A stretch of DNA of 51,387 nucleotides from Gammaproteobacteria bacterium (lineage in GTDB: Bacteria > Pseudomonadota > Gammaproteobacteria > Ga0077536): contig JAIEQK010000095.1 in assembly GCA_019747795.1 (NCBI GenBank), positions 1 to 51,387 of the forward strand. The letters are read 5' to 3'. A program made the position numbers and the translations under genes. This document shows positions 26,831-50,120 of the stretch, one piece after another; position 1 is the stretch's first letter, and each line of letters begins with the position of its first letter. The notes under the pieces were generated by a model, which worked only from the letters and a program-made list of their open reading frames with translations, had not been told where the DNA came from and searched no databases.

Positions 26831-26859
26831 ATCGGATGACAGCACAAGAGGACTCCCCC

Positions 26860-28107
26860 ATGACCACCCCATCCCCCCTCGCGAAGACCGACCCCTGGCA
26901 GCTGCCCCTGGCGTCCCTCGATCCCAGTCATCCGGACCTCTACCAGTACGAACTGCATGGTCCGTTGTTCGCGCGCCTGCGGCGCGAGTCGCCGGTGCAC
27001 TACACCGCGGACAGTCCCTTCGGATCGTTCTGGTCCATCACGCGTCACGCCGACATCGCGCAGGTGGAGCTCAACCACGAGGTGTTCTCCAATTCGCCGG
27101 CTATAGTGATTGGCGACCCGCCGACGGACTTCGCGCCGCCGATGTTCATCCAGATGGATCCGCCGCGGCACAGCGAGGAGCGCGCAGCCGTGCTGCCGGC
27201 GGTCAGCGCGGCGCGCATGAAGGAACTCGAGGTGCTGATCCGCAGCCGCGTCGGCGCCATCCTCGACGGCCTGCCGGTGGGCGAGACCTTCAACTGGGTG
27301 GACCACGTGTCGCGCGAGCTGACCACGCAGATGCTCGCGACGTTGTTCGACTTTCCCTGGGAGGACCGCCACCTGCTGCCGTTCTGGTCCGACGCCACCA
27401 CCACCAGCGATCTGGTCGGCGCGGACACCGACGAGGCCGAGCGGCGCAGGGTGCTCGGCGAGTGCCTGGCCTACTTCGCGCGCCTGTGGCAGGAACGCGC
27501 GAGCGCGACCGAGCCGCGCTTCGACTTCATCTCGCTGCTCGCGCACAACCCCAAGACGCGCGACATGATCAACGACCCGATGGAGCTGCTCGGCAATCTC
27601 ATGCTGCTCATCGTCGGCGGCAACGACACCACGCGCAATTCCATCAGCGGCGGGGTGCTCGCCATGCATCGTCATCCGGGGCAGCTGGAAGCGTTGCGCG
27701 CTGACCGGTCCCTGATCCCGAACGCGGTGTCCGAGATCATCCGCTGGCAGACGCCGGTGGCGCACATGCGGCGCACCGCCAAGCGGGACTTCAGCTTCCA
27801 GGGGCAGGACATCCGCGCGGGCGACAAAGTGGTGATGTGGTACGCCTCGGCCAATCGCGACGAGGCGGTGTTCGAGGACGCCGGCCGCTTCGACATCACG
27901 CGGCGCAACGCGCGCGAGCACCTGTCCTTTGGCCACGGCATCCACCGCTGCCTCGGCAGCCGCGTCGCCGAGATGCAGCTGCGCATCCTGTGGGACGAGA
28001 TCCTGAACCGCTACACGCGCATCGAAGTGGTGGGCGAACCGCAGCGCTTCCAGTCGAACTTCCTGCAGGGGTATACCGAGCTGCTGGTGAATGTGGTGCC
28101 GCTGTAA
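26860..28107 (+). CDS. cytochrome P450
   Basis: This 415-residue soluble bacterial P450 has the I-helix motif GGNDTTRNS (acid and Thr present), the ExxR motif EIIRW, and the heme-binding loop FGHGIHRCLG with the Cys ligand. VAHMRRTAKRDFSFQGQDI and WYASANRDEAVF resemble CYP125/CYP142-type and terpene-hydroxylating P450s, so a sterol, terpenoid or long acyl substrate is plausible. ATG 26860 has AGAGGA at a good distance. The frame extends upstream into a REP repeat, which was rejected as coding. No ferredoxin or ferredoxin reductase is adjacent, so electrons must come from elsewhere. The gene is flanked by repeats on both sides and looks monocistronic. Confidence 0.93.
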   Translation: MTTPSPLAKTDPWQLPLASLDPSHPDLYQYELHGPLFARLRRESPVHYTADSPFGSFWSITRHADIAQVELNHEVFSNSPAIVIGDPPTDFAPPMFIQMDPPRHSEERAAVLPAVSAARMKELEVLIRSRVGAILDGLPVGETFNWVDHVSRELTTQMLATLFDFPWEDRHLLPFWSDATTTSDLVGADTDEAERRRVLGECLAYFARLWQERASATEPRFDFISLLAHNPKTRDMINDPMELLGNLMLLIVGGNDTTRNSISGGVLAMHRHPGQLEALRADRSLIPNAVSEIIRWQTPVAHMRRTAKRDFSFQGQDIRAGDKVVMWYASANRDEAVFEDAGRFDITRRNAREHLSFGHGIHRCLGSRVAEMQLRILWDEILNRYTRIEVVGEPQRFQSNFLQGYTELLVNVVPL

Positions 28108-36016: not shown

Positions 36017-36052
36017 AGTAACCATCACTCCCAACGCAAGAGGAACGACGCC

Positions 36053-36559
36053 ATGGCATTGCCGCAGGAAATCAAGCCGCTCAATTCCGAGCTGATGGAT
36101 ACGCTGGTGCAGGCCAGCAAGATGGACTGGACGCCGCAGTTCAACACCGACAAGGCTTTCATCAAGGTGCTCTGGACGGGTTCCGAGTCCGGTAGCTGGG
36201 CGGTGCTGTTCCGCTGGCTGAAGGGTTTCGTCGCGCCTCCGCACAAGCATCTGTCCGCTTCCCATACCTTCATCCTGAGCGGCAAGCTGCAGGTACGGGA
36301 CGGCGTGCTGAACGCCGGCGACTACGTCTACGAGCCGAACGGCATGCTGCACGGCGCGACCACCGCACTGGAAGACACCGAGTACCTGTTCATCTGCAAC
36401 GGGCCCGTGCTGTTCTTCGACGGCAAGAGCTTCACTTCCTACCTGAGCTGGGAAGAACTGCGTCGCATGCAGGACAAGGCGCCGACCAAGTGCAAGCCCG
36501 CCGCCGCCAAAGCCAAAGCGAAGGCGCCTGTCAAGGCGCGCGCGCGCAGCACGGCCTGA
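36053..36559 (+). CDS. cupin-domain protein (acetylacetone dioxygenase-like family)
   Basis: The 168-residue protein has one cupin barrel. Motif 1 is APPHKHLSASHTFILSGKLQVRDG, with His residues for metal binding. Motif 2 is GDYVYEPNGMLHGATT, with the third His. The phrase FRWLKGFVAPPHKHLSASHTF is typical of the cupins grouped with acetylacetone-cleaving and dihydroxyacetophenone dioxygenases, so C-C bond oxidation is possible, but this is inference. The C-terminal tail (about 145-168, KPAAAKAKAKAPVKARARS) is a basic, low-complexity extension that the family does not need; its role is unknown. ATG 36053 has AAGAGGAA upstream. The GST gene follows after 14 bp. Confidence 0.82.
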   Translation: MALPQEIKPLNSELMDTLVQASKMDWTPQFNTDKAFIKVLWTGSESGSWAVLFRWLKGFVAPPHKHLSASHTFILSGKLQVRDGVLNAGDYVYEPNGMLHGATTALEDTEYLFICNGPVLFFDGKSFTSYLSWEELRRMQDKAPTKCKPAAAKAKAKAPVKARARSTA

Positions 36560-36573
36560 GGTCAGGGCCGGCG

Positions 36574-37206
36574 ATGAAGCTCTACTGGTACCGGGTCGCG
36601 CCAAACCCGACCAAGGTCCGGCTCTACATCGCCGAGAAGATCGCCGGCGGCGCCGCGCTCGAGATCGAAGGGGTGCTGGTCACGCTGCCCAAGGGCGAGC
36701 AGCGCTCACCCGAGCACCGCGCGCGCAATCCCTTCGAGACCTTGCCGGTGCTCGAACTCGACGATGGCTCGACCATCATCGAGTCGCTGGCGATCATCGA
36801 GTACCTCGAAGAACTGTATCCCGCGCCGCCGCTGTGGGGGATGGAGCCGCGGACCCGGGCGCGGGCCCGCGAAGTCGAACGTATCGTCGAGCAGCGCCTG
36901 CTGAACCCGGTGATCACCTATATCCACGCCACCGCCTCCCCGACCGGCAGGCCGCCCAACGCCGACGTTGCGGATCGCGCCGCGGCGGAATGGCCGATGG
37001 CGCTCCTCTATCTCGACGAACTGCTGGCCGACGAGCGCCCCTTCCTGCTCGGCGAGGCGCCGACGGTCGGCGACTGCACGCTGGCGGCGACCTTGCAGTT
37101 CGCGCGCTTCGCCAAGATTGACCTGCTCGCGGGCCTGCCGAACCTCGCGCGCTGGGACGACGCCTACCGCGCACGGCCCATCGCCCAGATGGTGCTGACG
37201 CTTTAG
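36574..37206 (+). CDS. glutathione S-transferase family protein
   Basis: The 210-residue protein has an N-terminal thioredoxin-like domain (MKLYWYRVAPNPTKVRLYIAEK, NPFETLPVLELDDGSTIIES), with the cis-Pro of TLPVLE and the glutathione-gamma-glutamyl contact at DGSTIIES. An all-helical C-terminal domain follows with FLLGEAPTVGDCTLAATLQFAR, whose LGEAPTVGDC is the N-capping box of the family. It conjugates glutathione to, or isomerises or dehalogenates, an unknown substrate in the cytosol. The ATG at 36574 follows a GGTCAGGG stretch. It is separated by 1 bp from a second GST-like gene, so the two are probably cotranscribed with the upstream cupin. Confidence 0.93.
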   Translation: MKLYWYRVAPNPTKVRLYIAEKIAGGAALEIEGVLVTLPKGEQRSPEHRARNPFETLPVLELDDGSTIIESLAIIEYLEELYPAPPLWGMEPRTRARAREVERIVEQRLLNPVITYIHATASPTGRPPNADVADRAAAEWPMALLYLDELLADERPFLLGEAPTVGDCTLAATLQFARFAKIDLLAGLPNLARWDDAYRARPIAQMVLTL

Positions 37207-37207
37207 C

Positions 37208-38314
37208 GTGAGCCCGCCCTATCGCCTGTTCGGCGTGGAGTGCTCCTACTACGCCGCGAAGATCCGCGCCTGCCTCGCCTACAAGCGCCTGCCCTTCATC
37301 GAGGTGCAGGCGTCGCGGCGGGTGTACGCCGAGGAGATCCTGCCGCGGGTCGGTTGGCCGGTGGTGCCGGTGCTGATCACGCCGGACGGCGAGACCGTGC
37401 AGGACACGTCCGACATGGTGGATCTGGTCGAGGCGCGTCATCCCGAGCCCCCGGCGCTACCCACCGGGGGCGTCGCCCGTGTGCTGTCCTACCTGCTCGA
37501 GTTCCTCGGCGACGAGTGGATCAAGCTGCCGGCGATGCACTATCGCTGGAATCACAACTACGACTTCATCGTCGCCGAGTTCGGGCGCAACAACGATCCC
37601 GAGGCGTCGCCCGCCGAGCAATGGCGGGTGGGCGAGAAGATCGCGCCGCGCTTTCGCGACTGGCTCGTGCCGCTCGGCGTGGTGCCGGCGAGCGAGGCGA
37701 CGGTGGAGCAGGACTACCTCGCGCTACTCGACCTGCTCGACACGCACTTCGCCGCGCATCCCTACCTGCTCGGCGGCGCGCCGACCTTGGGCGACTTCGC
37801 CTTCTTCGGGCCGCTGTACGCGCATCTCGAGCGCGACCCGAACTCGGGCGCGATCATGCACGCCCGCGCGCCGCGCGTGGCGGACTGGATTGCGCGGTTG
37901 CGCGCCGGCGCCGAGGACGCCGTGCCGGGCGCCGCGCTGCAGGCGCCGCCGGACTCGCTGTGGCCAGTGCTTCGCCTCCTGTGCCGCGACTTCGTGCCCA
38001 TGGTTGTGGCGGAGACGCGCTCGCTGCAGTCCTGGCTCGCCACGCAGCCCGTGGGCGAGGAATTGCCGCGCCACGCCGGACAGCATCGTGTGCGTCTGGG
38101 GCGCGACACGCCGCGCGAGGTCGAGGTCGAGCGCGCGCTGTTTCCCTACGATCTGTTCATGCTGCAGCGGGTGCAGGATGCCTTTCAGGCCCTGCCCAGC
38201 GACGAGGCGCGCGCGGCGCGCGACGCGCTCGCCGGCTGCGGGGCCGAAGCGCTTCTCGATCTGCATCTCGCCGCGCGCGTGACACGCCGTGACTTTCGCC
38301 TGGTGCGCGCGTGA
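37208..38314 (+). CDS. glutathione S-transferase-like protein with C-terminal extension
   Basis: The 368-residue protein has an N-terminal GST-like thioredoxin domain (LFGVECSYYAAKIRACLAYKRLPF, VVPVLITPDGETVQDTSDM) and a helical domain with YLLGGAPTLGDFAFFGPLYAH. About 130 further residues extend beyond a normal GST (from roughly 240), ending RRDFRLVRA. CSYY at residues 12-15 is reminiscent of glutaredoxin-like active sites. The GTG start at 37208 lies 1 bp after the stop of the preceding GST gene, and the transporter gene overlaps the end by 4 bp. The extension has no motif I can name. Its role is unknown, but the context suggests a detoxification or aromatic-side-chain unit. Confidence 0.85.
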   Translation: MSPPYRLFGVECSYYAAKIRACLAYKRLPFIEVQASRRVYAEEILPRVGWPVVPVLITPDGETVQDTSDMVDLVEARHPEPPALPTGGVARVLSYLLEFLGDEWIKLPAMHYRWNHNYDFIVAEFGRNNDPEASPAEQWRVGEKIAPRFRDWLVPLGVVPASEATVEQDYLALLDLLDTHFAAHPYLLGGAPTLGDFAFFGPLYAHLERDPNSGAIMHARAPRVADWIARLRAGAEDAVPGAALQAPPDSLWPVLRLLCRDFVPMVVAETRSLQSWLATQPVGEELPRHAGQHRVRLGRDTPREVEVERALFPYDLFMLQRVQDAFQALPSDEARAARDALAGCGAEALLDLHLAARVTRRDFRLVRA

Positions 38315-39174
38315 GCCCAGCGCTCGGCGCGCCGGCGCTGTTCGTATTCCTGTGGTCGACCGGCTTCATCGGTGCGCGCTACGGCCTGCCGCACGCCGAG
38401 CCCATGACCTTCCTGAGCTTACGCTTCGTCATCGTGCTCGCGCTGCTCGGACTCATCATCGCCTGGCGACCGGCGGCCTGGCCGCGCGCGCCGCGCATGT
38501 ACGGTCATCTCGCGGTGACCGGCATGCTGATGCACAGCAGCTATCTCGGCGGGGTGTTCAGCGCCATTCACGGAGGCTTGAGCGCGGGCCTCGCGGCGCT
38601 GATCGTCGGCACGCAGCCGCTGCTCACCGCTGCGCTGTCCGGGCCGCTGCTCGGCGAGCGCGTCGTCCTGCGGCAGTGGCTCGGTTTCCTGCTCGGTTTC
38701 GTCGGCCTCGCGCTCGTGCTGTCCAAGTCCTTCACGCAGGGCGCGCTGCCACCGACGGCGGTGGCCTGGGCGGTGTTCGGGCTCGCGGGCATCACCTGCG
38801 GCACGCTGTACCAGAAGAAGCACGTGGTGGATGTCGACCTGTGGCGCGGCTCGCTGGTGCAGTTCGCCGCCGCGCTCGTGCCTTGCGGCCTCTACGCGCT
38901 GGCGTTCGAATCACGTGTGATCGACTGGACGCCGTCCTTCGTCTTCGCGCTCGGCTGGCTGTGCGTGGTGCTGTCCATCGGCGCCATCGGCGTGCTGTGG
39001 GTGCTCATACGCAAGGGCGCGGCGGCGCGCGTCGCGAGCCTGTTCTACCTCGTGCCGCCGGTCACCGCGTTCGAGGCCTGGCTGGTGTTCGGTGAGCGGC
39101 TGACCGCGATGCAGGTGGCGGGTATCGTGCTCACCGCGCTCGGCGTGGCGCTGATCAATCGCAAGACCACCTGA
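38311..39174 (+). CDS. EamA/DMT-family inner-membrane transporter
   Basis: The 287-residue protein has ten hydrophobic segments in two EamA repeats: LFVFLWSTGFIGARYGLPHA and LIVGTQPLLTAALSGPLLGE in the first, and LCVVLSIGAIGVLWVLIRKG and LFYLVPPVTAFEAWLVFGE in the second. DMT exporters move small metabolites such as amino acids out of the cell; the cargo is unknown. The GTG at 38311 overlaps the GST-like gene stop by 4 bp, so it belongs to the same unit. The YLVPPVTAFEAWLVFGE phrase is the usual end of the second repeat, and the length is standard. Confidence 0.93.
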   Translation: MSPALGAPALFVFLWSTGFIGARYGLPHAEPMTFLSLRFVIVLALLGLIIAWRPAAWPRAPRMYGHLAVTGMLMHSSYLGGVFSAIHGGLSAGLAALIVGTQPLLTAALSGPLLGERVVLRQWLGFLLGFVGLALVLSKSFTQGALPPTAVAWAVFGLAGITCGTLYQKKHVVDVDLWRGSLVQFAAALVPCGLYALAFESRVIDWTPSFVFALGWLCVVLSIGAIGVLWVLIRKGAAARVASLFYLVPPVTAFEAWLVFGERLTAMQVAGIVLTALGVALINRKTT

Positions 39175-39573: not shown

Positions 39574-41730
39574 TCAGACCGTGGCGTTCGACGCGGGGCG
39601 CAGCGGCAGACGCCGCAGCCGCTTGCCGGTGGCGGCGAACAGCGCGTTGGCCAGTGCCGGCGCGAGCGGCGGCACACCCGGCTCGCCGACCCCGGTCGGG
39701 GCTTCGGTGGACGTGATGATGTGCACGTCGACGCGCGGCATCTGGTCGATGCGCAGCAGTGGGAAGTCGTCGAAGTTGCCCTGCTGCACCACGCCGTCCT
39801 CGAGCGTGATGGCCTGGTCTAACACCGCCGCCAGCGCATAGCCGACGCCGCCTTCCATCTGCGCGCGGATGACATCAGGGTTGATGGCCGTGCCGCAGTC
39901 GACCGCGACCGTCACGCGTTCCACGCGGTAGTCGCCGTCGGCCGCGGTGCTCACTTCCACCACTTCCGCGACCCAGGTCTTGAACGAGCGATGCACGGCG
40001 ATGCCGCGGCCGTGGCCGGCCGGCAGCGGCGTGCCCCAGCCGGCTTCGCGCGCGGCGCGCTCCAGCACGGCGAGGCGGCGTGGATCGTTCCTGATCAGGC
40101 GGCGGCGGTACTCGAACGGATCGACCCCGACCGCGTGCGCGCACTCGTCGACGAAGCACTCCACCGCGAAGGCGGTGTGGGTGTGGCCGACCGAGCGCCA
40201 CCACAGCACCGGTACGCCGGGCTCGGTGAGATGGGCCTCGACGCGCAGGTTCGGCACCGCGTAGGCGAGATCCGACGCACCCTCGTGCACGGTGCGGTCG
40301 ATCTTCTCGTCGCTCGCCTTGGCGCCCGGCAGCAGCGGCTGGCTGACGATGCGCTGCAGCCAGGCGAGGGGATTGCCGTCGGCATCGAGCGTCGCCTGCA
40401 GCGCGTGGGTGGTGGCCGGCCGGTAGCGGCCCGCGCGCATGTCGTCTTCGCGCGTCCAGACCAGCTTGAGCGGCTGGCCGTCATCCAACGCGCGGGCGAC
40501 GTTCACCGCCTCCAGCACGTAGTCGGCGCGCGGATCGGCGCGCCGGCCGAAGGAGCCGCCGGCGTAGAACTGGTGGATGACCACCTGCTTCGGTTCGAGA
40601 CCGAGCAGCTTCGCGACATTGTTCTGATCGCCGCTCATCGACTGCGCGCCGTACCAGAGCTCGGCGCGATCTTTGGCGAGTTGCACCACGCAGTTCATCG
40701 GCTCCATCGAGGCGTGGGCCAGGTAGGGCAGTTCGTAGACTGCTTCGAGGCTGCGCTCGGCCTTGGCGAGTGCGGCCGGCGCGTCCCCTTCGTTGCGCAC
40801 CACGCGCCCGCTCTGGGCCGCGAGCGCGAGGTAGTGCTCGCGCTGGTCCTGGCTGTCGAGTCGGCTCGCGCCACGCTCGTCCCAGGTGACGACGAGCGCA
40901 TCGCGCCCGCGGCGCGCGTTCCAGAAGCCATCGGCCACCACCGCCACGCCGCTGTCCAGCTTCAGCACCGCGTGCACGCCGGGCAGCTTGCGCGCCGCGG
41001 CGTCGTCGACTTTGGCCGGCGTCGCGCCGAAGCGCGGCGGATGCAGCACCAGCGCGGTACGCATGCCCGGCAGGTAGACATCCTGGGTGTACTGCGCGCG
41101 GCCGGCGGTCTTGGCCGCGACGTCGGTGCGAGGCAGCGAACGGCCGATGAGCACGAACTCATCGGGTTTCTTGAGCGCGACCTCGTTCGGCACCGGCAGC
41201 GTCGCGGCGCGCGCGGTGAGCGCGCCGAAGCCCGACTCGCGACCGCTCGCCGCGTGGCGCACGCGGCCGCGAGCCACTTCGATCTCGCTCGCCGGCACGC
41301 GCCACTCGGCGGCCGCCGCCGCGACCAGCATGGCGCGCGCGGTCGCACCCGCTTCGCGCATCTGCAGCCAGCTGTTGTTCATCGCCGAGCTGCCGCCGGT
41401 GCCCTGGGCGGTGCCCCAGTTGAGATTGGCGTAGCGGCTCGCGTCCGCCGGCGCGGCTTCGACCTCGACCTGGGCCCAGTCGGCGTCCAGTTCCTCGGCG
41501 ACCAGGGTGGCGAGACCGGTGTGCGCGCCCTGGCCGAACTCGACGTGCTTGGCGATCACGGTCACGCGCGAGTCCGGCGCGATGCGCACGAAGGCGTTGG
41601 GCGCGAAGTCCGCGGCGGCGTCACTCGCTGCGTCCGCGTCTTGCAAGCGGAAACCCAGGGTGAGACCCGCGCCGAAGGCAAGGCCCGCCTTCAGGAAGCC
41701 GCGGCGCGTCGACTTGAACGGCGCGTTCAT
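39574..41730 (-). CDS. molybdopterin-binding subunit of an isoquinoline 1-oxidoreductase-like hydroxylase
   Basis: The 718-residue protein begins with a Tat signal, STRRGFLKAGLAFGAGLTLG, so it should be folded in the cytosol and exported. The remainder is of the xanthine dehydrogenase molybdopterin subunit family. Examples are HVEFGQGAHTGLATLVAEELD, WGTAQGTGGSSAMNNSW, YAGGSFGRRADPRADYV, and near the C terminus APTGVGEPGVPPLAPAL, where the Glu is the active-site base. It follows the IorB layout, a two-subunit hydroxylase without FAD domain. It hydroxylates an aldehyde or N-heterocycle with water as the oxygen source and passes electrons to the 2Fe-2S partner. The start overlaps the partner gene by 4 bp. 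It is the last of an eight-gene minus-strand run. Confidence 0.93.
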   Translation of the reverse strand: MNAPFKSTRRGFLKAGLAFGAGLTLGFRLQDADAASDAAADFAPNAFVRIAPDSRVTVIAKHVEFGQGAHTGLATLVAEELDADWAQVEVEAAPADASRYANLNWGTAQGTGGSSAMNNSWLQMREAGATARAMLVAAAAAEWRVPASEIEVARGRVRHAASGRESGFGALTARAATLPVPNEVALKKPDEFVLIGRSLPRTDVAAKTAGRAQYTQDVYLPGMRTALVLHPPRFGATPAKVDDAAARKLPGVHAVLKLDSGVAVVADGFWNARRGRDALVVTWDERGASRLDSQDQREHYLALAAQSGRVVRNEGDAPAALAKAERSLEAVYELPYLAHASMEPMNCVVQLAKDRAELWYGAQSMSGDQNNVAKLLGLEPKQVVIHQFYAGGSFGRRADPRADYVLEAVNVARALDDGQPLKLVWTREDDMRAGRYRPATTHALQATLDADGNPLAWLQRIVSQPLLPGAKASDEKIDRTVHEGASDLAYAVPNLRVEAHLTEPGVPVLWWRSVGHTHTAFAVECFVDECAHAVGVDPFEYRRRLIRNDPRRLAVLERAAREAGWGTPLPAGHGRGIAVHRSFKTWVAEVVEVSTAADGDYRVERVTVAVDCGTAINPDVIRAQMEGGVGYALAAVLDQAITLEDGVVQQGNFDDFPLLRIDQMPRVDVHIITSTEAPTGVGEPGVPPLAPALANALFAATGKRLRRLPLRPASNATV

Positions 41731-42182
41731 GCCAGCGCCTCCGCCGCGCGATGGATCGCGGCGCGGATGCGTACGTAGGTCGCGCAGCGACACAGGTTGC
41801 CGCGCATCGCCTGGTCGATGTCGGCATCGCTCGGGCGCGGGTTCCGCGACAAGAGCGCGGTCGCCGCCATCACCTGGCCCGGCTGGCAGTAGCCGCACTG
41901 CGCCACCTCGAGCGCGTTCCAGGCGTCGATCACGGCGCGCGACACCGGCGTGTCGATGCCCTCGATGGTGGTGATGGACTTGTCGGCGAGGGCCGACAGC
42001 GGCAGCACGCAGGCACGCTGCGGCTCGCCGTCGATGAGCACCGTGCAGGCGCCGCACAGCGCCTTGCCGCAGCCGTACTTGGCGCCGGTCAGGTGCAGTT
42101 CGTCGCGCAGCGCCCACAGGAGCGGCGTGTCGTCCGCCGCGCGCAGTTCCTGCTTGCGGCCGTTGATGTCGAGCGTGGCCAT
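41727..42182 (-). CDS. 2Fe-2S subunit of the molybdenum hydroxylase (IorA-like)
   Basis: The 151-residue protein has a plant-type 2Fe-2S cluster (Cys38, Cys43, Cys46, Cys58: YGCGKALCGACTVLI and RAC) and a second cluster in an all-helical domain (Cys96, Cys99, Cys131, Cys133: QCGYCQPGQ and NLCRCATY). This is the small subunit of xanthine-oxidase-type enzymes and passes electrons from the molybdenum centre to an acceptor. No signal peptide is seen, so it would leave the cell by pairing with the Tat-exported large subunit. The 3' end overlaps the large subunit gene by 4 bp. The final electron acceptor, often a cytochrome c, is not encoded here. Confidence 0.95.
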   Translation of the reverse strand: MATLDINGRKQELRAADDTPLLWALRDELHLTGAKYGCGKALCGACTVLIDGEPQRACVLPLSALADKSITTIEGIDTPVSRAVIDAWNALEVAQCGYCQPGQVMAATALLSRNPRPSDADIDQAMRGNLCRCATYVRIRAAIHRAAEALA

Positions 42183-42226
42183 GGCGGTCCTCCGTCGCCG
42201 GAGTATAGCCGGCGAACGTGGCCGCT

Positions 42227-43423
42227 TCAGGTCGGCCAGCGGAGCCTGAGTTCTTTCATGGTGCGGAGCTGGCCGCTCTCGTAGCTCGGCTGCTTGCCGG
42301 GTTCGACTTCGAACTCGGGAATGCGCGCGATGAACTCCTCGATCGCGACGCGAATCTCGAGTCGCGCGAGATGCTCACCGAGACAGCGGTGCGGGCCGAC
42401 GCCGAACGCGGTGTGCACCACTTCCTGGCGCTCGAGATCGAAGCGCGCGGGATCGGCGCAGACTTCCGGGTCGCGCGAGGCGGCGGCGTAGTTGAGCGCG
42501 ACCCGATCGCCGGTGCGCAGCTGTTCGCCGCCCACCTCGCAGTCGGCGCGCACGCTGCGTCCCACCGCCACCACCGGCGCGTAGAGGCGCACGGTTTCCT
42601 CGACCGCGGTGTGCATGCGATCGGGCGCGCGCTGCAGGGCGGCGCGCAGCGCCGGGTCGGCCGCCAGCGCGTAGATCGCCCCGGAGATCGCGTGAGTGGT
42701 GGTGGCGAGCCCGGCGAACACCACGTCCAGCACCACGTGCACCTTGTCGTCCCAGCTGCAGGGCGCGCCGTCGCGCTCGACGCCGGCCAGGATCACGTCG
42801 ACGATGTCGCCGCCGCGCGAAGGCTCCCGCGCGCGGGTCTCGAGAAAACGCTGCAGGTAGACGTACACGCGCTCAAACGCCGGCGTGCGCGCCTGCATCG
42901 GGCCAAAGGAGTAGATGTCGATGTCCTTGAACAGCATGGGCAGGTCGTCCACCGGCACGGGCAGGATGTGCTTGAACAGCACCAGGCCCGGCAGCTGCGC
43001 GGCGAAGTCGGCGACGAACTCGCAGTGTCCTTGCGGCGCGACCCGCGCCACCAGTTCACCGGCATAGGCGCGCGCCGGCGCTTCCAGCGCCTGTACCGCG
43101 GCGGCGGAGAAGAACGGGTTCAGCACCCGCCGCCACTCGGTGTGGTAGGGCGGATCGAGATCCTCGGGCAGGATGGCGATGTTGCCCGGCGGCGGGTTCA
43201 GCATCCAGCCGTCGGCGCTGCTGAAGGTGCGCCAGTCCTGCGCGCAGCGGCGCACCTCGCGATAGCGGTTGAAGACGCGGTAGCCCGGGCCGACCTCGCT
43301 GTGCGCCACCGGGCAGCGCGCGACCAGGTGCTCCAGCACGCCCTCGAACTCGGTGGCGAACAGCGGGTCGTCGATGTCGAACTTGCGGGCGAGGTGCGCG
43401 TAACGCTCGGGAGTGTCGCTCAC
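42227..43423 (-). CDS. cytochrome P450 with Ala at the usual I-helix acid position
   Basis: This 398-residue soluble P450 has EETVRLY (ExxR) and the heme loop FGVGPHRCLGEHLARLE. The I-helix reads FAGLATTTHA. In most P450s the residue before the conserved Thr is Asp or Glu (AGxDT or AGxET); here it is Ala. This acid helps deliver protons, so oxygen activation may depend on another group or on substrate. ILPEDLDPPYHTEWRRVLNPFF matches the P450s often found in bacterial terpenoid and steroid pathways. It is cotranscribed with the Rieske gene upstream (19-bp gap) and the 2Fe-2S subunit downstream (44-bp gap). No ferredoxin partner is adjacent. Confidence 0.93.
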   Translation of the reverse strand: MSDTPERYAHLARKFDIDDPLFATEFEGVLEHLVARCPVAHSEVGPGYRVFNRYREVRRCAQDWRTFSSADGWMLNPPPGNIAILPEDLDPPYHTEWRRVLNPFFSAAAVQALEAPARAYAGELVARVAPQGHCEFVADFAAQLPGLVLFKHILPVPVDDLPMLFKDIDIYSFGPMQARTPAFERVYVYLQRFLETRAREPSRGGDIVDVILAGVERDGAPCSWDDKVHVVLDVVFAGLATTTHAISGAIYALAADPALRAALQRAPDRMHTAVEETVRLYAPVVAVGRSVRADCEVGGEQLRTGDRVALNYAAASRDPEVCADPARFDLERQEVVHTAFGVGPHRCLGEHLARLEIRVAIEEFIARIPEFEVEPGKQPSYESGQLRTMKELRLRWPT

Positions 43424-43442
43424 GGGGAATCTCCGAGTTCGT

Positions 43443-44612
43443 TCAGCGCGCGTGACCTGCCATCAGGCGCGCGATGGTGTTGTGATAGTTCTGCACGGCG
43501 GGCTCGTTGCGGCCGAACAGGAATTCCTGGTTGGCGCCGCTCGTGAGCCCGGCCTGGATGGTGCGGCCGACCGCGTAGTCTTCGTCCTTCACGGCCTGCA
43601 GCACCATGGCGCTGAAGAGCTCCGAAGCGGCGCGCTCCTGCTCGGTCACCGGCGGCTTCGCCACCAGCACGGTCTGGCGGGTGACGGTGGTGGTCGGTGT
43701 CGGGCCAGGGAAGATCTGGCTCACCAGGCAGTGGTCGCCCAGGATCCCGGAGATCGATGTATTGGGAAAACAGTTGTGGATGAGACGGATGTGTTTCTGC
43801 TCATCCCACGCGCTCTCCGGCTGATCGACGAGTTCCGCCAGTGACTTGCGGCCGAAGGTCAGGCGCTGGTGCGGGCCCCAGGTGTCCAGCACGAGGAGGT
43901 TGCCGACCGTGTACTGGCCGACCGTCTTGCCGTGCAGCGAATTGTGATGGTAGGCCTCGAGGTAGCCGTCCAGCGCCACCTTCCAGCCCGGCCCGTCCAG
44001 TTCGCGCTGCTCGTAGATGCTCCAGGTGTCGAGTTGCAGCGTAGCCAGTTCATCGACGAAGTCGCCGAGCCAGGCGTCGATGTCCAGCGGCTCGCCGGGC
44101 GTGAGTTTCACGTACACCAGGCCCGCGCGCTCGGCGCAGTCGAGTTCGGTGAGACCGAGGGTTGCGTGATCGACGTCGCCGAAAGTCTCGGCGGCGTAAC
44201 GGTTGATGAGCGCGCCCTGCGTGTCGTAGGCCCAGGCGTGGTAGGGGCAGGTGAAGACGCGCGCATGGCCGCGTCCCTGCGCGCACACCGTCGCGCCGCG
44301 ATGGCGGCAGGCATTCAGGAAGGCGCGCGCGCGGCCATCCTTGCCGCGCACCATCAGCACCGGCACGTCCAGGACCTGCATCGCGCGGTAGTCGCCGGCC
44401 TGCGGGATCTCGATGCTCAACGCGAGTGCGAGCGGCAGGTGCTTGAACACGCGCTCGACTTCGCGCCGATAGCGCTCGGGGTCGATGTAGGCCGCGACCG
44501 GCATGTGCATCACGCTCGCGGCCTGGTCGGTGGTGCCGGCCTGGAAGTGCGCGAGCGCGCGGCGCGTGAGACCGAGCATCACCTCGCGCCGATCGGTGGC
44601 GGCCGCGCTCAT
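43443..44612 (-). CDS. Rieske non-heme iron ring-hydroxylating oxygenase, alpha subunit
   Basis: The 389-residue protein has a Rieske 2Fe-2S domain (CRHRGATVC then CPYHAWAYD: C-x-H and C-x2-H ligands) and a catalytic domain whose mononuclear iron ligands include the two His of GYLEAYHHNSLH. The third, acidic ligand probably lies in the C-terminal third. FGRNEPAVQNYHN is the usual tail of this family. It dihydroxylates or demethylates an aromatic or cyclic substrate with O2. The gene overlaps the SnoaL-like gene upstream by 4 bp. The SnoaL-like protein may take the place of the beta subunit. No reductase or ferredoxin gene is in the cluster. Confidence 0.94.
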   Translation of the reverse strand: MSAAATDRREVMLGLTRRALAHFQAGTTDQAASVMHMPVAAYIDPERYRREVERVFKHLPLALALSIEIPQAGDYRAMQVLDVPVLMVRGKDGRARAFLNACRHRGATVCAQGRGHARVFTCPYHAWAYDTQGALINRYAAETFGDVDHATLGLTELDCAERAGLVYVKLTPGEPLDIDAWLGDFVDELATLQLDTWSIYEQRELDGPGWKVALDGYLEAYHHNSLHGKTVGQYTVGNLLVLDTWGPHQRLTFGRKSLAELVDQPESAWDEQKHIRLIHNCFPNTSISGILGDHCLVSQIFPGPTPTTTVTRQTVLVAKPPVTEQERAASELFSAMVLQAVKDEDYAVGRTIQAGLTSGANQEFLFGRNEPAVQNYHNTIARLMAGHAR

Positions 44613-45184
44613 GACGACGTCCCCGACGTCACGTGCCGCGCGAGAAACTCGCGCCACGGCGCCAGGGTTTCCGGGTAGTCGGCCGGCAGGCGCTCGCCGC
44701 GAATGAAGAGCCGGTTGCGCTCCTTGAGCGCGCCGGCGTACTCGGTGACCGGCACGTAGTAGAGGAAATGGATGCTGCGTTTCGCGATGCGCCAGCGCCC
44801 GTCCTCGCGACGGTATTCGTCGTGGTAGCGCATCGCGGCCAGGCTTACCACTTCCGACGGGCAGGTCTCCGCGTGGCTCAGCACCAGGCCCGTGGCGCGG
44901 TCGGGGTCGGCCTCGTCGAAGGTGATGACGTGATCGTGCGTCCAATGAAAGGCCGGGCCGCGTACCTTGAACAGTTCGATGTACATCGCCTCGATCGCGG
45001 CGCGGCCATGGGCCAGCATCGCGCCGCTCGGCGAATCGAACACCGCGTCGACCGTGAACAGGTCGCACAGGCGCGGCATGTCATGCTCGTCGCAGGCGAT
45101 GGCGTAGGCGGTGATGAGATCACTGATCGCGAAGCGCGACTCCAGCCGGTCGATGCTGCGCTTGAGCGCGGCCATGTCATCCAT
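44609..45184 (-). CDS. SnoaL/NTF2-like protein (possible beta subunit or isomerase)
   Basis: The 191-residue protein has the NTF2-like cone fold: ISDLITAYAIACDEHDMPRLCDLFTVDAVFD, then GRAAIEAMYIELF, and RYHDEYRREDGRWRIAKRSI. The family includes ring-hydroxylating oxygenase beta subunits, SnoaL cyclases and ketosteroid isomerases. The direct coupling (4-bp overlap) to the Rieske alpha subunit makes a beta-subunit-like or substrate-handling role the best guess. It is larger than the usual 140-residue SnoaL domain because of a C-terminal tail (about 160-191). The catalytic Asp-Tyr pair of ketosteroid isomerase cannot be assigned by eye. Confidence 0.85.
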   Translation of the reverse strand: MDDMAALKRSIDRLESRFAISDLITAYAIACDEHDMPRLCDLFTVDAVFDSPSGAMLAHGRAAIEAMYIELFKVRGPAFHWTHDHVITFDEADPDRATGLVLSHAETCPSEVVSLAAMRYHDEYRREDGRWRIAKRSIHFLYYVPVTEYAGALKERNRLFIRGERLPADYPETLAPWREFLARHVTSGTSS

Positions 45185-45202
45185 GGTGAGTCCTCGAGAG
45201 TG

Positions 45203-46195
45203 TCAGGATAAGGACGCGCGCAGCAGGCGGCGCGCATTGTCGGCGTAGGGGCGGGCTTCGGCCCGCACGTCGCCCGGCTGCTGATCCCAACCGGCGAAGT
45301 TGGTACCGAACAGCAGCCGGTCAGGATTCACGCGACGCCTCAGCAGTTCCACGGACTCGGCGGAGTGCACGTGGATGTCGAACCACAGGCGATGCAGCAG
45401 CGCTTCGAAGGCGCCGTCCTCGCGCAGGCTCGCGCTCGCCCAGGGGCGCTTGCGCGCGGCACTCGCCATGCGTCCGAAGAGATAGCCGGTGGCGCCGCCG
45501 CCGTGGCTAACGGCAATGTCCAGCTTGGGATGACGCTCCAGCACGCCGCCGTAGATGAGCGTGCACACCGCGATGGTCTCCTGCGCGCAGAAGCCGATGA
45601 TGATGTCGAGATCGAAGCGCTTGAGGTTGGGATCGCCGGGCGGGCCGTCGATGCCGGCCGGCGCCGGATGGATGAACAGCGGCACATCGAGCGCGACCAG
45701 GGTCTCGTAGAACGCATCGAGCGCTGGATCGTCCAGCGGCCGGCCGAAGTCGCTGCCGATGTAGGGCCCGACCATGCCGAGTTCACGCACCGCTCGAGTC
45801 GTCTCCTCGATGGCGAAACCGATATCCTGCATCGGCACCGCCGCGCAGGCGGCGAGACGCGCGGCGTGCGGCGCGACCTGGGCGGCGAGGGCGTCGTTGT
45901 GCACGCGGCAGAAGTCGCGCGCCGCGGCCGGCTCGATGAAGTGGAAATAGGTGAGCGGATTGGGCGACAGCACCTGGAAGTCGATACCGGCACGGTCCAT
46001 GGCGGCGAGGCGCAGGTCCACGTCCATGAAGGGGCTGCCGCGGTAGCGCACGCCGTGCAGCTCGTAGCCGCCGACGCGAAAGCGCGGCTGGGCCTCGTAG
46101 CCGAGTTCGGGGCCGTGCTCGCCGGCCGCGCCCATGGTCGCTTCCAGTACGGCGTGGGCGTGGACGTCGATGGTCTGCGCGTCAGCGAGGCTCAC
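45203..46195 (-). CDS. amidohydrolase 2 family (ACMSD-like decarboxylase/hydrolase)
   Basis: The 330-residue TIM-barrel metalloprotein is of the amidohydrolase 2 group. IDVHAHAV carries the HxH metal motif, LFIHPAPAG the next His, AVSHGGGATGYLFGRM the fourth, and FGTNFAGWD the metal Asp. Family members such as ACMSD and gamma-resorcylate decarboxylase remove CO2 from ring-cleavage or phenolic acids. Members associated with P450 and Rieske clusters often act on cyclic dicarbonyls. It overlaps the preceding amidohydrolase gene by 4 bp and is followed by the SnoaL-like gene after 18 bp. Decarboxylation is favoured over hydrolysis, with moderate confidence. Confidence 0.9.
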   Translation of the reverse strand: MSLADAQTIDVHAHAVLEATMGAAGEHGPELGYEAQPRFRVGGYELHGVRYRGSPFMDVDLRLAAMDRAGIDFQVLSPNPLTYFHFIEPAAARDFCRVHNDALAAQVAPHAARLAACAAVPMQDIGFAIEETTRAVRELGMVGPYIGSDFGRPLDDPALDAFYETLVALDVPLFIHPAPAGIDGPPGDPNLKRFDLDIIIGFCAQETIAVCTLIYGGVLERHPKLDIAVSHGGGATGYLFGRMASAARKRPWASASLREDGAFEALLHRLWFDIHVHSAESVELLRRRVNPDRLLFGTNFAGWDQQPGDVRAEARPYADNARRLLRASLS

Positions 46196-47550
46196 AGTGA
46201 TTCTCCGCGCTTGAACTCGTCCACCACGTCCTGTCGCAGGATACGTGTGCCGTAGTGCGGCGCGCGCCAGCCCGGCGGGTCCCGGCGCGGCGGCGCGCTG
46301 AAGCTGGGCACGGGCTCACCGTTCATGATCACCTGGCGCAGATTCTCACGCCGGCCGAGCACGGTGACGTCTCGAGCCACGTCGCCCGCCACCAGCAGCA
46401 GATCGGCCAGGCGGCCGACTTCGACCGCGCCGGTCTCGCCGGTGAGTCCGAGCGCGAAGGCGTTGTCGCTGGTCGCGGCCCTGATCGCTTCCAGGGGCGT
46501 GAAGCCGAGGTCCTTCACGAACACTTCCAGCTCGCGGTAATGCCAGTCGCCGTAGGGCGTGATGGAAAAGCCCGACTCGGTGCCGCACAGCATGGGCACG
46601 CCGGCGTCGTAGGCGCGCTTCAGCATCACCGCGCTTTCTTCGATCTCCTTCTGGAAGATCTTGCGGATGCCTTCGGACGCGCCGACCGCCGCGCCGTAGT
46701 CGGCGAGATTGGCCTGGAAGGTGAAGGTCGGCACGATGGGCACGCGGCGTTCGACCACCGCTTCCAGTGCGGCGTCGTCCATGTAGGTCGCGTGCAGGAT
46801 CATGTCCATGCCGGCCAGCGCCGCGTCCCGCGTGCTGCTCGCGCCGCGACAGTGGCCGACCACCGGGATGCCGAGTTCGTGGGCGGTGTCGCATACGAGT
46901 TTCAGCTCGTCCAGCGTCCACATCTGTACTTCGCCCTTGATGCGCTGGCGCGGCGTGAGGCCGGTGACGTGCACCTTGATCCAGTCGACGCCGATCTTTA
47001 TCTGTCGCCGCACCTCGCGCACGATCTCGTCGCGGCCATGCACCACCATGCCGTAGCCGCGCCGGCCTTCGTCGGGGATCAGCCGGCCGGCGGTGCCGCC
47101 GCCGGCGGTGAGCAGTGCGTTGCCGCCGGTGGCCATGCGCGGCCCGGGCACGATGCCGGCCTCGAGCGCGTCGCGCAGGTCCACGCCCACCTCCCACAGC
47201 GAGTCGGCGTCGAAGAAGCCGGTCACGCCGGCGGCGAGCAGCTTGCGCACGTTGGCCGCGGCGATGATCGCGGCGAGTCCTTCGCGTCGATGGAAGAAGA
47301 GCTCGTCGTTGGAATTCGGCTCGTCGAAGCTGATGTGGCAGTGCGCATCGATCAGGCCGGGCATGACGGTCATGCCGCGGGCGTCGATGCGTGGCACGGC
47401 GGGTGGCGTGCTTGCGCCGAGATCGGGCGCGACCGCCGCGATGCGGTTGCCGGCCAGCAGCACGTCAGCGCTGAAGGGCGGATTGCCGAGGCCATCGATC
47501 ACCTGGCCGCCTTCGATCAGCAGGCTCGCGGGGGTCTGTTCGTTCATCAT
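46192..47550 (-). CDS. amidohydrolase family protein (imidazolonepropionase-like)
   Basis: The 452-residue amidohydrolase 1 protein has a composite beta-sandwich (start SLLIEGGQVIDGLGNPPF, end GRLADLLLVAGDV) around a TIM barrel. Metal positions are AHCHIS (HxH), KVHVTG (bridging Lys is possible here), GHCRG and HATYMDD. The final metal acid reads CGTESG, so it is Glu where most members have Asp (GTDS/GTDA). It may hydrolyse a cyclic amide, lactone or ester. MMNEQ gives two possible ATGs (47550, 47547), with GTGAG upstream. It lies 8 bp after the P450 gene and overlaps the next amidohydrolase by 4 bp. Confidence 0.9.
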   Translation of the reverse strand: MMNEQTPASLLIEGGQVIDGLGNPPFSADVLLAGNRIAAVAPDLGASTPPAVPRIDARGMTVMPGLIDAHCHISFDEPNSNDELFFHRREGLAAIIAAANVRKLLAAGVTGFFDADSLWEVGVDLRDALEAGIVPGPRMATGGNALLTAGGGTAGRLIPDEGRRGYGMVVHGRDEIVREVRRQIKIGVDWIKVHVTGLTPRQRIKGEVQMWTLDELKLVCDTAHELGIPVVGHCRGASSTRDAALAGMDMILHATYMDDAALEAVVERRVPIVPTFTFQANLADYGAAVGASEGIRKIFQKEIEESAVMLKRAYDAGVPMLCGTESGFSITPYGDWHYRELEVFVKDLGFTPLEAIRAATSDNAFALGLTGETGAVEVGRLADLLLVAGDVARDVTVLGRRENLRQVIMNGEPVPSFSAPPRRDPPGWRAPHYGTRILRQDVVDEFKRGESL

Positions 47551-47558
47551 CACTTTTC

Positions 47559-48746
47559 TCACCAGGCTACCGGCAGCGAGCGTGCGCCACGCACCCAGAG
47601 CGAGGCCAGCCACTCGGTGCGGGTTTCGAGTCGTCGAATGTCGGGCATGCGCGCCAGCACTGCTGCGAGGGCGATGGCGCCCATGCGTTTGCCGAGCGCG
47701 GCGCCCGGGCAGTAGTGGGGGCCATGGGCAAAGGACAGGTGCCGTCCGGCATCACGATGGATGTCGAAGTGCTCCGGCGCGTCCCAGTGGCGCTCATCGC
47801 GATTGGCCGAGCCGATGTAGGACAGCACGTAGCTGCCGGCAGGAATAAGCGCGCCATGCAGTTCGACATCGTGGGTGGCGGTCTGGAACACCAGGTTGAC
47901 CGGCGACCAGTAGCGCAGTGTCTCATCCATGAGATTGGCGCACAGCGCGGGATCCTCGCGCACCGCGGCCAGCGCCTCGGGGTGCTCGAAGAGCGCGAGC
48001 AGCGCGCTGCTGATCATGTGGGACGGCGTCTCCGAGCCCCCGAAGTGGGTCAGCACGGCGATGGAGAGCACCTGAAGCGAAGTCAGCACGTCGCCGTCTT
48101 CCTCGGCACGCACCAGGTGCGAAATGAAGTCGTCCCCCGGCGCCACGCGGCGCTCGGCGATGCTGCGCTCGAGGTAGGCGCGCAGTTCCGCGACGCTCGC
48201 GCGGATGCGCGCCACCTCGTCGGGCGGCAGGCTCGCGCGGTTGGCGGCGTTCAGCAGGTCGGCGGTCCAGATCTTGAAGTTCTCGCGCTGGCTGCGGTCC
48301 ACGCCGAGGAGTTCGGCGGTGACGCTCACGGGGACGTAGGCGGCGAAATCGGCCACGAAGTCGAACTCGTGGCCCCGCGCCATGATCTCGTCCAGCAGCC
48401 CGTCGACGATGGCGCGGATGCGCGGTTCCAGGGATCGCGTCACCGCCGGCGTGAAGGCCTGGCCGGCCAGCTTGCGCAGCGGCGTGTGGGCCGGTGGATC
48501 CATGGCGATCAGGGACGGCGTCTCCGGCACCGGGTCGAGGTCGCCGAAGGCCTGCGCGATGAAGTCCCGCGCCGAGTAGGTCTCCGGATGCAGGAAGGTG
48601 TGCTTGCAGTCGTCGTAGCGGAACAGGCCCCAGGCCTTCAGCGCAGGGATGTAGCTGACCGGCGCGTCGTTCCGCAGGCGGCGGTACCAGGGATAGGGAT
48701 CCTGCTGCACTTCGCGCAGCGTGGGATCGAACTCGACGGCGCTCAT
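47559..48746 (-). CDS. cytochrome P450 (first gene of the catabolic operon)
   Basis: The 395-residue P450 has the heme loop FAHGPHYCPGAALGK (FxxGxxxCxG), ExxR as ETLRYW, and an I-helix HFGGSETPSH with the acid and Thr present (SET) but Pro after it. RKLAGQAFTPAVTRSLEPRI and PSLIAMDPPAHTPLR are typical of class I bacterial P450s such as those acting on terpenoids. ATG 48746 is chosen (MSAVEFDPTLREVQQDPYPWY); the frame runs further upstream into the promoter region. A promoter with an embedded palindrome lies 52 bp before it. The first intragenic gap to the amidohydrolase is 8 bp, so it heads the eight-gene operon. Confidence 0.94.
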   Translation of the reverse strand: MSAVEFDPTLREVQQDPYPWYRRLRNDAPVSYIPALKAWGLFRYDDCKHTFLHPETYSARDFIAQAFGDLDPVPETPSLIAMDPPAHTPLRKLAGQAFTPAVTRSLEPRIRAIVDGLLDEIMARGHEFDFVADFAAYVPVSVTAELLGVDRSQRENFKIWTADLLNAANRASLPPDEVARIRASVAELRAYLERSIAERRVAPGDDFISHLVRAEEDGDVLTSLQVLSIAVLTHFGGSETPSHMISSALLALFEHPEALAAVREDPALCANLMDETLRYWSPVNLVFQTATHDVELHGALIPAGSYVLSYIGSANRDERHWDAPEHFDIHRDAGRHLSFAHGPHYCPGAALGKRMGAIALAAVLARMPDIRRLETRTEWLASLWVRGARSLPVAW

Positions 48747-48932: not shown

Positions 48933-50120
48933 ATGCAGCCCATGACAGGCATACGCATCATCGATGTCACGACCAACGCCTCGGGCCCCATGGCCACCGG
49001 CATGCTCGCCGACCAGGGCGCGGACGTTATCCGCTTCGAGACCGTCGGCGCGGGCGATCCGGCGCGCCACGTCGGCGGCGTGCGCGGCGGGGTGTCGGCC
49101 TATTTCGCGCAGATGAATCGCAACAAGCGCTCGATGGCGGTCGACCTCAAGAACCCCGCCATTCGTCCGGCGCTCTACAAGCTCATCGAGACCGCCGACG
49201 TGTTCGTGCAGAACTCGCGTCCCGGCGCGCTCGATCGCGCCGGCTACGGCTTCGAGGATCTGCACCGCATCAACCCCCGCCTGATCTACGTTTCCATCTC
49301 GGGCTTCGGTCGCAGCAACCCGGCCGCCGACAAGCGCGTCTACGATCCGGTCATCCAGTCGGTATCGGGTTTCGCCGCGGCCCAGGGCGCGGGGGGCGGC
49401 GAGCCGCAGCTGATGCGCACCATCGCGAGCGACAAGGTCGCCGCCGTCACCGCCGCGCAGGCCATCTCCTCGGCGCTCTTCGCGCGCGAGCGCGGCCTCA
49501 TCGCAGGGCACCACGTCGAACTCTCCATGCTCGACGCGAGCCTGCACTTCCTGTGGCCGGAAGTGTTCTGGAACAACAGCTTCGTCGGCGCCGAGGGCTT
49601 CACCCCGAAACCGCTGATAGCGTCCTTCTACGAGCTGCTCCGCACCCAGGACGGCTTCATCACGCTGATCGTGGTCGGCGATGGCGAGTTCGCCGGCGTG
49701 TGCCGCGCGCTCCGCATCGAGCACCTGCTGGACGACCCGCGCTTCACCTCGCTCACGCTGCGCTTCGCCAATTATTCGCAGATGCTGACCGAGTTCCGCC
49801 CGGCGGCGGCGAACTTCACCTGCGCGGAACTGATCGCGCGCCTCGAGGAGAACGATGTGCCTTGCGCCAAGGTGAACCAGCTGCACGAGGTGGCGGACGA
49901 CCCGCGCGTGAAGCATGGCGACACCTTGGTGGAGTACGAGCACCCGCGCGGCGGCCGCATCCGTCAGGCCAGCGCGCCGGCGGTGTTTGCCGGCGAACGC
50001 ATGCCGGTGCGTCTTCCGGCGCCGGCGCTCGGCGAACACACCGCCGAAGTGCTGCGCGCGGTCGGCTGCAGCGACGCGGAGATCGACGCCTGGGTGGCGT
50101 CAGGGGCGGTCGGCGTGTGA
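48933..50120 (+). CDS. class III (CaiB/BaiF) acyl-CoA transferase
   Basis: The 395-residue protein has the class III CoA-transferase fold: GIRIIDVTTNASGPMATGML at the N terminus, RNKRSMAVDLKNP, a YDPVIQSVSGF block whose Asp is the catalytic nucleophile, HHVELSMLDASLHFLWPEVF, and VPCAKVNQLHEVADDPRV. It moves CoA between a carboxylic acid and an acyl-CoA donor. Divergent from the P450-led operon, it is a reasonable entry enzyme that activates the operon's acid product for further breakdown; this is inference. The ATG at 48933 has GGGGAGAA upstream. The next gene lies beyond a hairpin repeat. Confidence 0.92.
   Translation: MQPMTGIRIIDVTTNASGPMATGMLADQGADVIRFETVGAGDPARHVGGVRGGVSAYFAQMNRNKRSMAVDLKNPAIRPALYKLIETADVFVQNSRPGALDRAGYGFEDLHRINPRLIYVSISGFGRSNPAADKRVYDPVIQSVSGFAAAQGAGGGEPQLMRTIASDKVAAVTAAQAISSALFARERGLIAGHHVELSMLDASLHFLWPEVFWNNSFVGAEGFTPKPLIASFYELLRTQDGFITLIVVGDGEFAGVCRALRIEHLLDDPRFTSLTLRFANYSQMLTEFRPAAANFTCAELIARLEENDVPCAKVNQLHEVADDPRVKHGDTLVEYEHPRGGRIRQASAPAVFAGERMPVRLPAPALGEHTAEVLRAVGCSDAEIDAWVASGAVGV

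Follow-up and report, generated by a model that had tools for sequence, protein, structure and literature searches.

The lum cluster of Nocardioides simplex dismantles a multi-ring compound, lumichrome/riboflavin, with a cytochrome P450 (P450), a xanthine-oxidase-type molybdenum enzyme, a Rieske oxygenase and several hydrolases (PMC12746152). We describe here a locus that encodes enzymes of similar kinds: eight genes at positions 39574-48746 of a 51,387-nucleotide contig (JAIEQK010000095.1, assembly GCA_019747795.1) from a Gammaproteobacteria bacterium whose genome of 5.9 Mb is 99% complete. The whole stretch is referred to below as the window. The lum cluster differs in that it encodes Rieske alpha and beta subunits along with a ferredoxin and a reductase, and also an extradiol dioxygenase, a thiamin-dependent decarboxylase and a xanthine oxidase made as one chain; we found none of these in the operon described here. 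Identity with the lumichrome pathway was rejected because its signature genes are absent from the operon and from its annotated relatives. The camphor-type pathway (P450cam, CYP101) offers a second comparison. The second P450 of the locus (P450b) is P450cam-like, and a gene of the Baeyer-Villiger or flavin-containing monooxygenase type (BVMO/FMO) lies beside it in two relatives, whereas the I-helix acid is replaced by Ala here and the operon of the window encodes no BVMO.

With moderate confidence, we read the locus as a conserved operon for the aerobic breakdown of a cyclic compound that is imported and is most likely alicyclic or terpenoid-like. Ring-rich molecules make up much of the dissolved organic matter of lakes and oceans, and little is known of the bacteria that consume them. 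A compact operon that recurs in uncultured aquatic bacteria, including SAR86, is a testable handle on one such ring compound. No paper describing this gene set was found in the open-access literature of PubMed Central.

Organization of the locus

All eight open reading frames on the minus strand are intact, without internal stops. They are as follows.

47559..48746, minus strand: P450a, a cytochrome P450 (Pfam p450, 8.8e-27); core gene in the family
46192..47550, minus strand: AHyd, a prolidase/Cc2672-type amidohydrolase (Pfam Amidohydro_1, 1.9e-31; PDB 3mtw); core gene
45203..46195, minus strand: ACMSD-like amidohydrolase, PF04909 (Pfam Amidohydro_2, 8.7e-29; PDB human ACMSD, 6e-32); core gene
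44609..45184, minus strand: SnoaL-like protein of the NTF2 fold, probable dehydratase (Pfam SnoaL_4, 2.3e-26); core gene
43443..44612, minus strand: Rieske oxygenase alpha subunit (Pfam Rieske, 1.6e-16; Ring_hydroxyl_A, 1e-28); core gene
42227..43423, minus strand: P450b, P450cam-like (PDB P450cam, 1.8e-49); family-level companion
41727..42182, minus strand: MoS, [2Fe-2S] small subunit of a molybdenum hydroxylase (Pfam Fer2 and Fer2_2; eight Cys)
39574..41730, minus strand: MoL, molybdenum hydroxylase large subunit with a Tat signal (Pfam MoCoBD_1/2; PDB 8gy3_C, 7.2e-81)

Consecutive genes share 4-bp overlaps at 46192/46195, 44609/44612 and 41727/41730, and the remaining gaps measure 8, 18, 19 and 44 bp; the start of AHyd is probably at 47550 or 47547, which gives the 8-bp gap to P450a. 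The preliminary description of this DNA had reported eight unbroken minus-strand genes with these overlaps and gaps, which the reading frame positions confirm; Pfam confirms the family of each gene. The eight genes form an operon-like unit, though not a uniform one, and joint transcription is predicted. None of the eight proteins matches an NCBIfam model above its curated cut-off.

A family core partly shared with marine lineages

The core consisting of P450a, AHyd and the ACMSD-like, SnoaL and Rieske genes keeps the same order and strand in the family wherever contigs permit, and it is contiguous in all complete family loci. Orthologues were called here by identity and synteny, and neighborhood genes by conservation instead of a gene finder; many loci are fragments of metagenome-assembled genomes (MAGs) that end inside the cluster. 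The ACMSD-like protein, used as bait, is present in the window genome and in nine other family genomes at 77-88% identity, every match outside those ten family genomes being weaker than E = 1e-34. Of 31 sampled genomes, 10 contain the ACMSD-like gene, and AHyd is present in these 10 and in no other. Were the 31 genomes independent, such a match would be expected by chance about once in 44 million; they are related, and the true evidence is weaker. P450a occurs in these 10 cluster genomes and in one more (G011), where it stands alone (L071:10122-11297, 74% identity) with the rest of the cluster missing.

Across the genome collection the ACMSD-like gene was found at 31 loci; nine of these belong to family genomes, and two MAGs contribute a pair of loci each. 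The synteny recurs in many genomes, with ACMSD-like proteins 49-88% identical, and the locus is therefore more than a chance assembly. The named relatives are for the most part gammaproteobacterial MAGs, and record titles place several of these in lakes or groundwater. Two records titled Klebsiella pneumoniae (L013 and L022) hold the family's cluster at 77-88% identity, and their titles are probably wrong.

AHyd, the ACMSD-like gene, SnoaL and Rieske also recur in marine Pseudomonadales-type MAGs and in SAR86. The marine order (e.g. L025, L026, L027) is AHyd, P450, P450, two genes for short-chain dehydrogenases/reductases (SDRs), ACMSD-like, [2Fe-2S] ferredoxin, SnoaL and Rieske. Genes for a MarR regulator and a molybdenum large subunit diverge from this row, and a transporter of the major facilitator superfamily (MFS) is encoded nearby. 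The claim that no reductase or ferredoxin is encoded for these oxygenases holds for the window, where none was seen among the genes examined around the operon, but marine relatives have a ferredoxin inside theirs. The marine P450s belong to other families than those of the window and mostly carry His at the I-helix acid position (AGAH or AGSH). Such His-type P450s are seen at L026:6024-8478, with orthologues in L017, L020, L021, L027, L031, L032 and L038; a PDB search with one of them (L026:7279-8478) returned nothing at 1e-20. In the SAR86 locus L040, SnoaL, Rieske and the ACMSD-like gene are contiguous, and the neighborhood (L040:2-15374) includes AHyd, a TonB receptor, an MFS transporter and Cupin_7, SDR, glyoxalase-like and BVMO/FMO-like genes. 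The core proteins show correlated pairwise distances (rho 0.43-0.87), which is expected of genes with a common line of inheritance but also arises from a shared history of the species alone.

The TonB receptor and MFS genes in SAR86, together with the MFS gene in the marine loci, suggest uptake of a substrate. They also bear on the idea that the operon serves to build or modify a secondary metabolite, which we regard as quite improbable. P450s, SnoaL-like proteins and Rieske enzymes are common tailoring enzymes, and weak P450 and BVMO matches to pentalenolactone enzymes would fit such a role; the transporter genes adjoining the cluster in SAR86, however, speak for import, no polyketide synthase, nonribosomal peptide synthetase or terpene cyclase was identified in the annotated neighborhoods, and the NCBIfam matches lie far under their cut-offs. 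SAR86 is a lineage with small genomes.

The preliminary description had treated all eight genes as one set whose co-occurrence could be looked for in other genomes. That expectation was borne out for the five-gene core in the family and for four of its five genes in distant marine lineages; the full set is not conserved outside the genus, the molybdenum pair being adjacent only in genus g1 and the neighboring coenzyme A (CoA)-transferase being generic.

Altered metal sites in the two amidohydrolases

In LigW and the gamma-resorcylate, 2,3-dihydroxybenzoate and iso-orotate decarboxylases, the metal-bound Asp protonates the substrate carbon (PMC8187880). The ACMSD-like protein shares with the PF04909 decarboxylases, ACMSD among them, the TIM-barrel fold (match to human ACMSD, 2wm1, TM score 0.80), the HxH motif, the other two metal His and Arg242: His12, His14 and His176 are kept, and His231 nearly always. 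It differs in that the catalytic metal Asp, which serves as general acid in related decarboxylases, is replaced by Asn299 in all 31 sequences covering the site. Given that Asn cannot act as a proton donor in the same way, the protein is, judged by this residue, unlikely to be a decarboxylase. Asp304, located five residues beyond Asn299, is conserved and could take over metal binding, model confidence being low in this region. A more distant ACMSD-like group (L035 and L037, with record titles Burkholderiales and Rhodoferax) retains the Asn and has Asp in place of His231.

AHyd shows a comparable change. It keeps most of the binuclear site of Cc2672/prolidase-like enzymes, namely HxH, the bridging Lys and two His, but not the beta-8 metal Asp, and reads GTES where its relatives read GTD. 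Glu323 occupies the metal-Asp position, and the Glu reported there by the preliminary description is real, being found in 19/19 sequences covering the site, the window included; HxH, Lys190, His231, His251 and Glu323 are invariant (alignment A4). By their invariant Asn and Glu the two enzymes mark out subgroups, and the chemistry of these is expected to depart from that of their annotation namesakes, ACMSD and the prolidase-like enzymes. The ring-opening hydrolases named earlier are best taken as putative.

The SnoaL-like and Rieske proteins

LinA, a close structural relative of the SnoaL-like protein, uses Asp25-His73 as its catalytic dyad (PMC3507683). The model of the SnoaL-like protein (pLDDT 90.5) finds as nearest solved folds LinA, a putative scytalone dehydratase, the bile-acid 7-alpha dehydratases (BaiE) and LdpA, the likeness to BaiE being one of fold alone. 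Tyr27, Asp32 and His80 are invariant in 21/21 sequences, and the Asp32-His80 spacing of 48 equals that of LinA. Since this LinA-type Asp-His dyad is kept within an NTF2 fold, the protein is probably a dehydratase, although it is only ~19-24% identical to LinA, BaiE and LdpA, has a longer C-terminus than LinA and is encoded beside a Rieske oxygenase. Its gene directly precedes the Rieske gene, and we considered it as a candidate Rieske beta subunit; this was rejected on the conserved dyad and on the fold ranking, in which LinA is first (1.2e-11) and chains from solved complexes of Rieske dioxygenases are first met at rank 35 (7e-8).

The cluster and iron ligands of the Rieske protein seen in the alignment are kept in its orthologues, as is a Glu at the bridging-Asp position. 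This bridging Glu and the top NCBIfam match, GbcA (score 124 against a cut-off of 670), are shared with the Group V Rieske monooxygenases CntA, Stc2 and GbcA. In contrast, the Cys-X-X-Cys pair that lies next to the iron in some members, such as CntA and Stc2, is replaced by EAYHH in the window, and the orthologues read EAYHH or EVYHH.

These features raise the alternative that the operon degrades an N-heterocycle or a compound of the quaternary-ammonium type, with the molybdenum enzyme hydroxylating the heterocycle, the Rieske enzyme attacking the carbon next to the nitrogen and the amidohydrolases cleaving C-N bonds. The bridging Glu and the GbcA match would agree with it, as would the union of a P450, a xanthine oxidase, a Rieske enzyme and hydrolases in lumichrome degradation (PMC12746152) and the relationship of AHyd to amide and dipeptide hydrolases, its nearest relatives. 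However, the Rieske protein lacks the two Cys seen in CntA and Stc2, the molybdenum pair is not conserved with the core, and MoL is closest to an aldehyde dehydrogenase; in addition, the extradiol dioxygenase, Rieske beta subunit and thiamin-dependent decarboxylase of lum were not found in the examined loci. We consider both this alternative and the scheme drawn for it unlikely, and prefer catabolism of an alicyclic or terpenoid-like compound.

The P450s and the molybdenum pair

The nearest solved relatives of P450a are PDB 6gmf (7.6e-70) and YjiB (2.5e-68), the latter of which we take to be CYP109B1. Its I-helix reads FGGSETPS and its heme loop FAHGPHYCPG. P450b is nearest to P450cam by sequence but lacks the Asp-Thr acid-alcohol pair: its I-helix reads AGLATTT, with the Ala at the acid position that had been noted before and that recurs as Ala-Thr in L016, L024 and L046. 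A further P450 in the window (26857-28107, plus strand) scores 402 bits to the SolI model, whose cut-off is 850.

Orthologues of P450b (65-84% identity) occur in G001, G007, G009, G016, G019 and G024 and are linked to the core in most of these genomes; a BVMO/FMO-type gene stands beside P450b in G007 and G016. MoL carries a twin-arginine (Tat)-like motif, STRRGFLK, and a GVGE motif, and matches a bacterial aldehyde dehydrogenase large subunit (8gy3_C) over its full length as its nearest solved relative. MoL orthologues (68-71%) adjoin P450b in G001 and MoS in G002, both genomes of the window's genus, and other genomes have only more distant homologues, located elsewhere.

This distribution bears on whether the operon could be a genus-level patchwork, a chance union of the core with a P450b-molybdenum module acting on different substrates, which would be compatible with our preferred explanation for the core. 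The molybdenum pair adjoins P450b only in genus g1; in G001 (L062, contig 117) MoL directly follows P450b and no MoS gene was found on the contig; and P450b lies on another contig than the core in G016 and kilobases from it in G009 and G019. On the other hand, P450b directly follows Rieske in G001, G007 and G024, its close orthologues are confined to cluster genomes (13 genomes searched), and in the window the gaps do not exceed 44 bp and the two genes of the molybdenum pair overlap by 4 bp. We regard a patchwork as rather doubtful.

A proposed catabolic route

In the route proposed here, every substrate and the order of steps are inferred, whereas the gene set, its conservation, the enzyme families and the conserved active-site residues are observed. 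P450a and P450b would hydroxylate unactivated C-H bonds, and the resulting alcohols might be oxidized by an SDR, which the marine operon includes but which would be encoded in trans in the window's genome. The Rieske monooxygenase would introduce another hydroxyl, and the SnoaL-like protein would eliminate water by means of its Asp-His dyad. AHyd and the ACMSD-like enzyme may then open the ring in metal-dependent hydrolytic or C-C cleaving, non-decarboxylating steps. Owing to the resemblance of MoL to an aldehyde dehydrogenase subunit, the exported molybdenum pair is predicted to turn an aldehyde into an acid in the periplasm. The electrons that the P450s and the Rieske oxygenase require must be supplied by proteins encoded elsewhere, and other Fer2 proteins do exist in the genome, which holds 18 Fer2-domain matches, MoS itself being one.

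The catabolic, alicyclic or terpenoid-like reading is supported by the YjiB-like and P450cam-like relatives of the P450s, the lyase and dehydratase folds closest to SnoaL and the BVMO/FMO neighbors. On the P450 and SnoaL relatives, the substrate class of terpenoids, steroids or lignans proposed earlier is plausible. More tentatively, the loci in freshwater Gammaproteobacteria, marine Pseudomonadales and SAR86 may represent an undescribed aerobic ring-degradation pathway in which the Asn-type ACMSD-like enzyme and the Glu-type AHyd cleave C-C bonds or lactones without decarboxylation, part of their input coming from P450s that have no I-helix acid.

Several observations weigh against the catabolic reading. 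No acyl-CoA ligase, extradiol dioxygenase or other named-pathway signature was seen in the conserved unit. Because the freshwater and marine P450s differ, the first steps may differ as well. Loss of activity is conceivable for the Asn and Glu enzymes, though their strict conservation speaks against it. Moreover, the cluster is sparse at class level, where at the cut-off used it turned up in 2 genomes from a sample of 276, each belonging to the family of the window.

Flanking genes

Two further features border the operon.

48933..50120, plus strand: family III CoA-transferase, divergent (Pfam CoA_transf_3, 4.7e-99)
36050..39174, plus strand: flank with a Cupin_7 protein, two proteins resembling glutathione S-transferases and an EamA-type transporter; syntenic in G001, role uncertain

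The divergent CoA-transferase lies where it had been described. It adjoins the core only in G000-G002, is found elsewhere on other contigs and occurs also in a genome without the core. On this distribution, with no linkage outside the genus, it was rejected as a pathway gene and is probably outside the pathway unit. The Cupin_7 protein (36050-36559, plus strand) has a solved relative, 3bal, named as an acetylacetone-cleaving enzyme, and Cupin_7 genes are also located near the cluster in L028 and L040.

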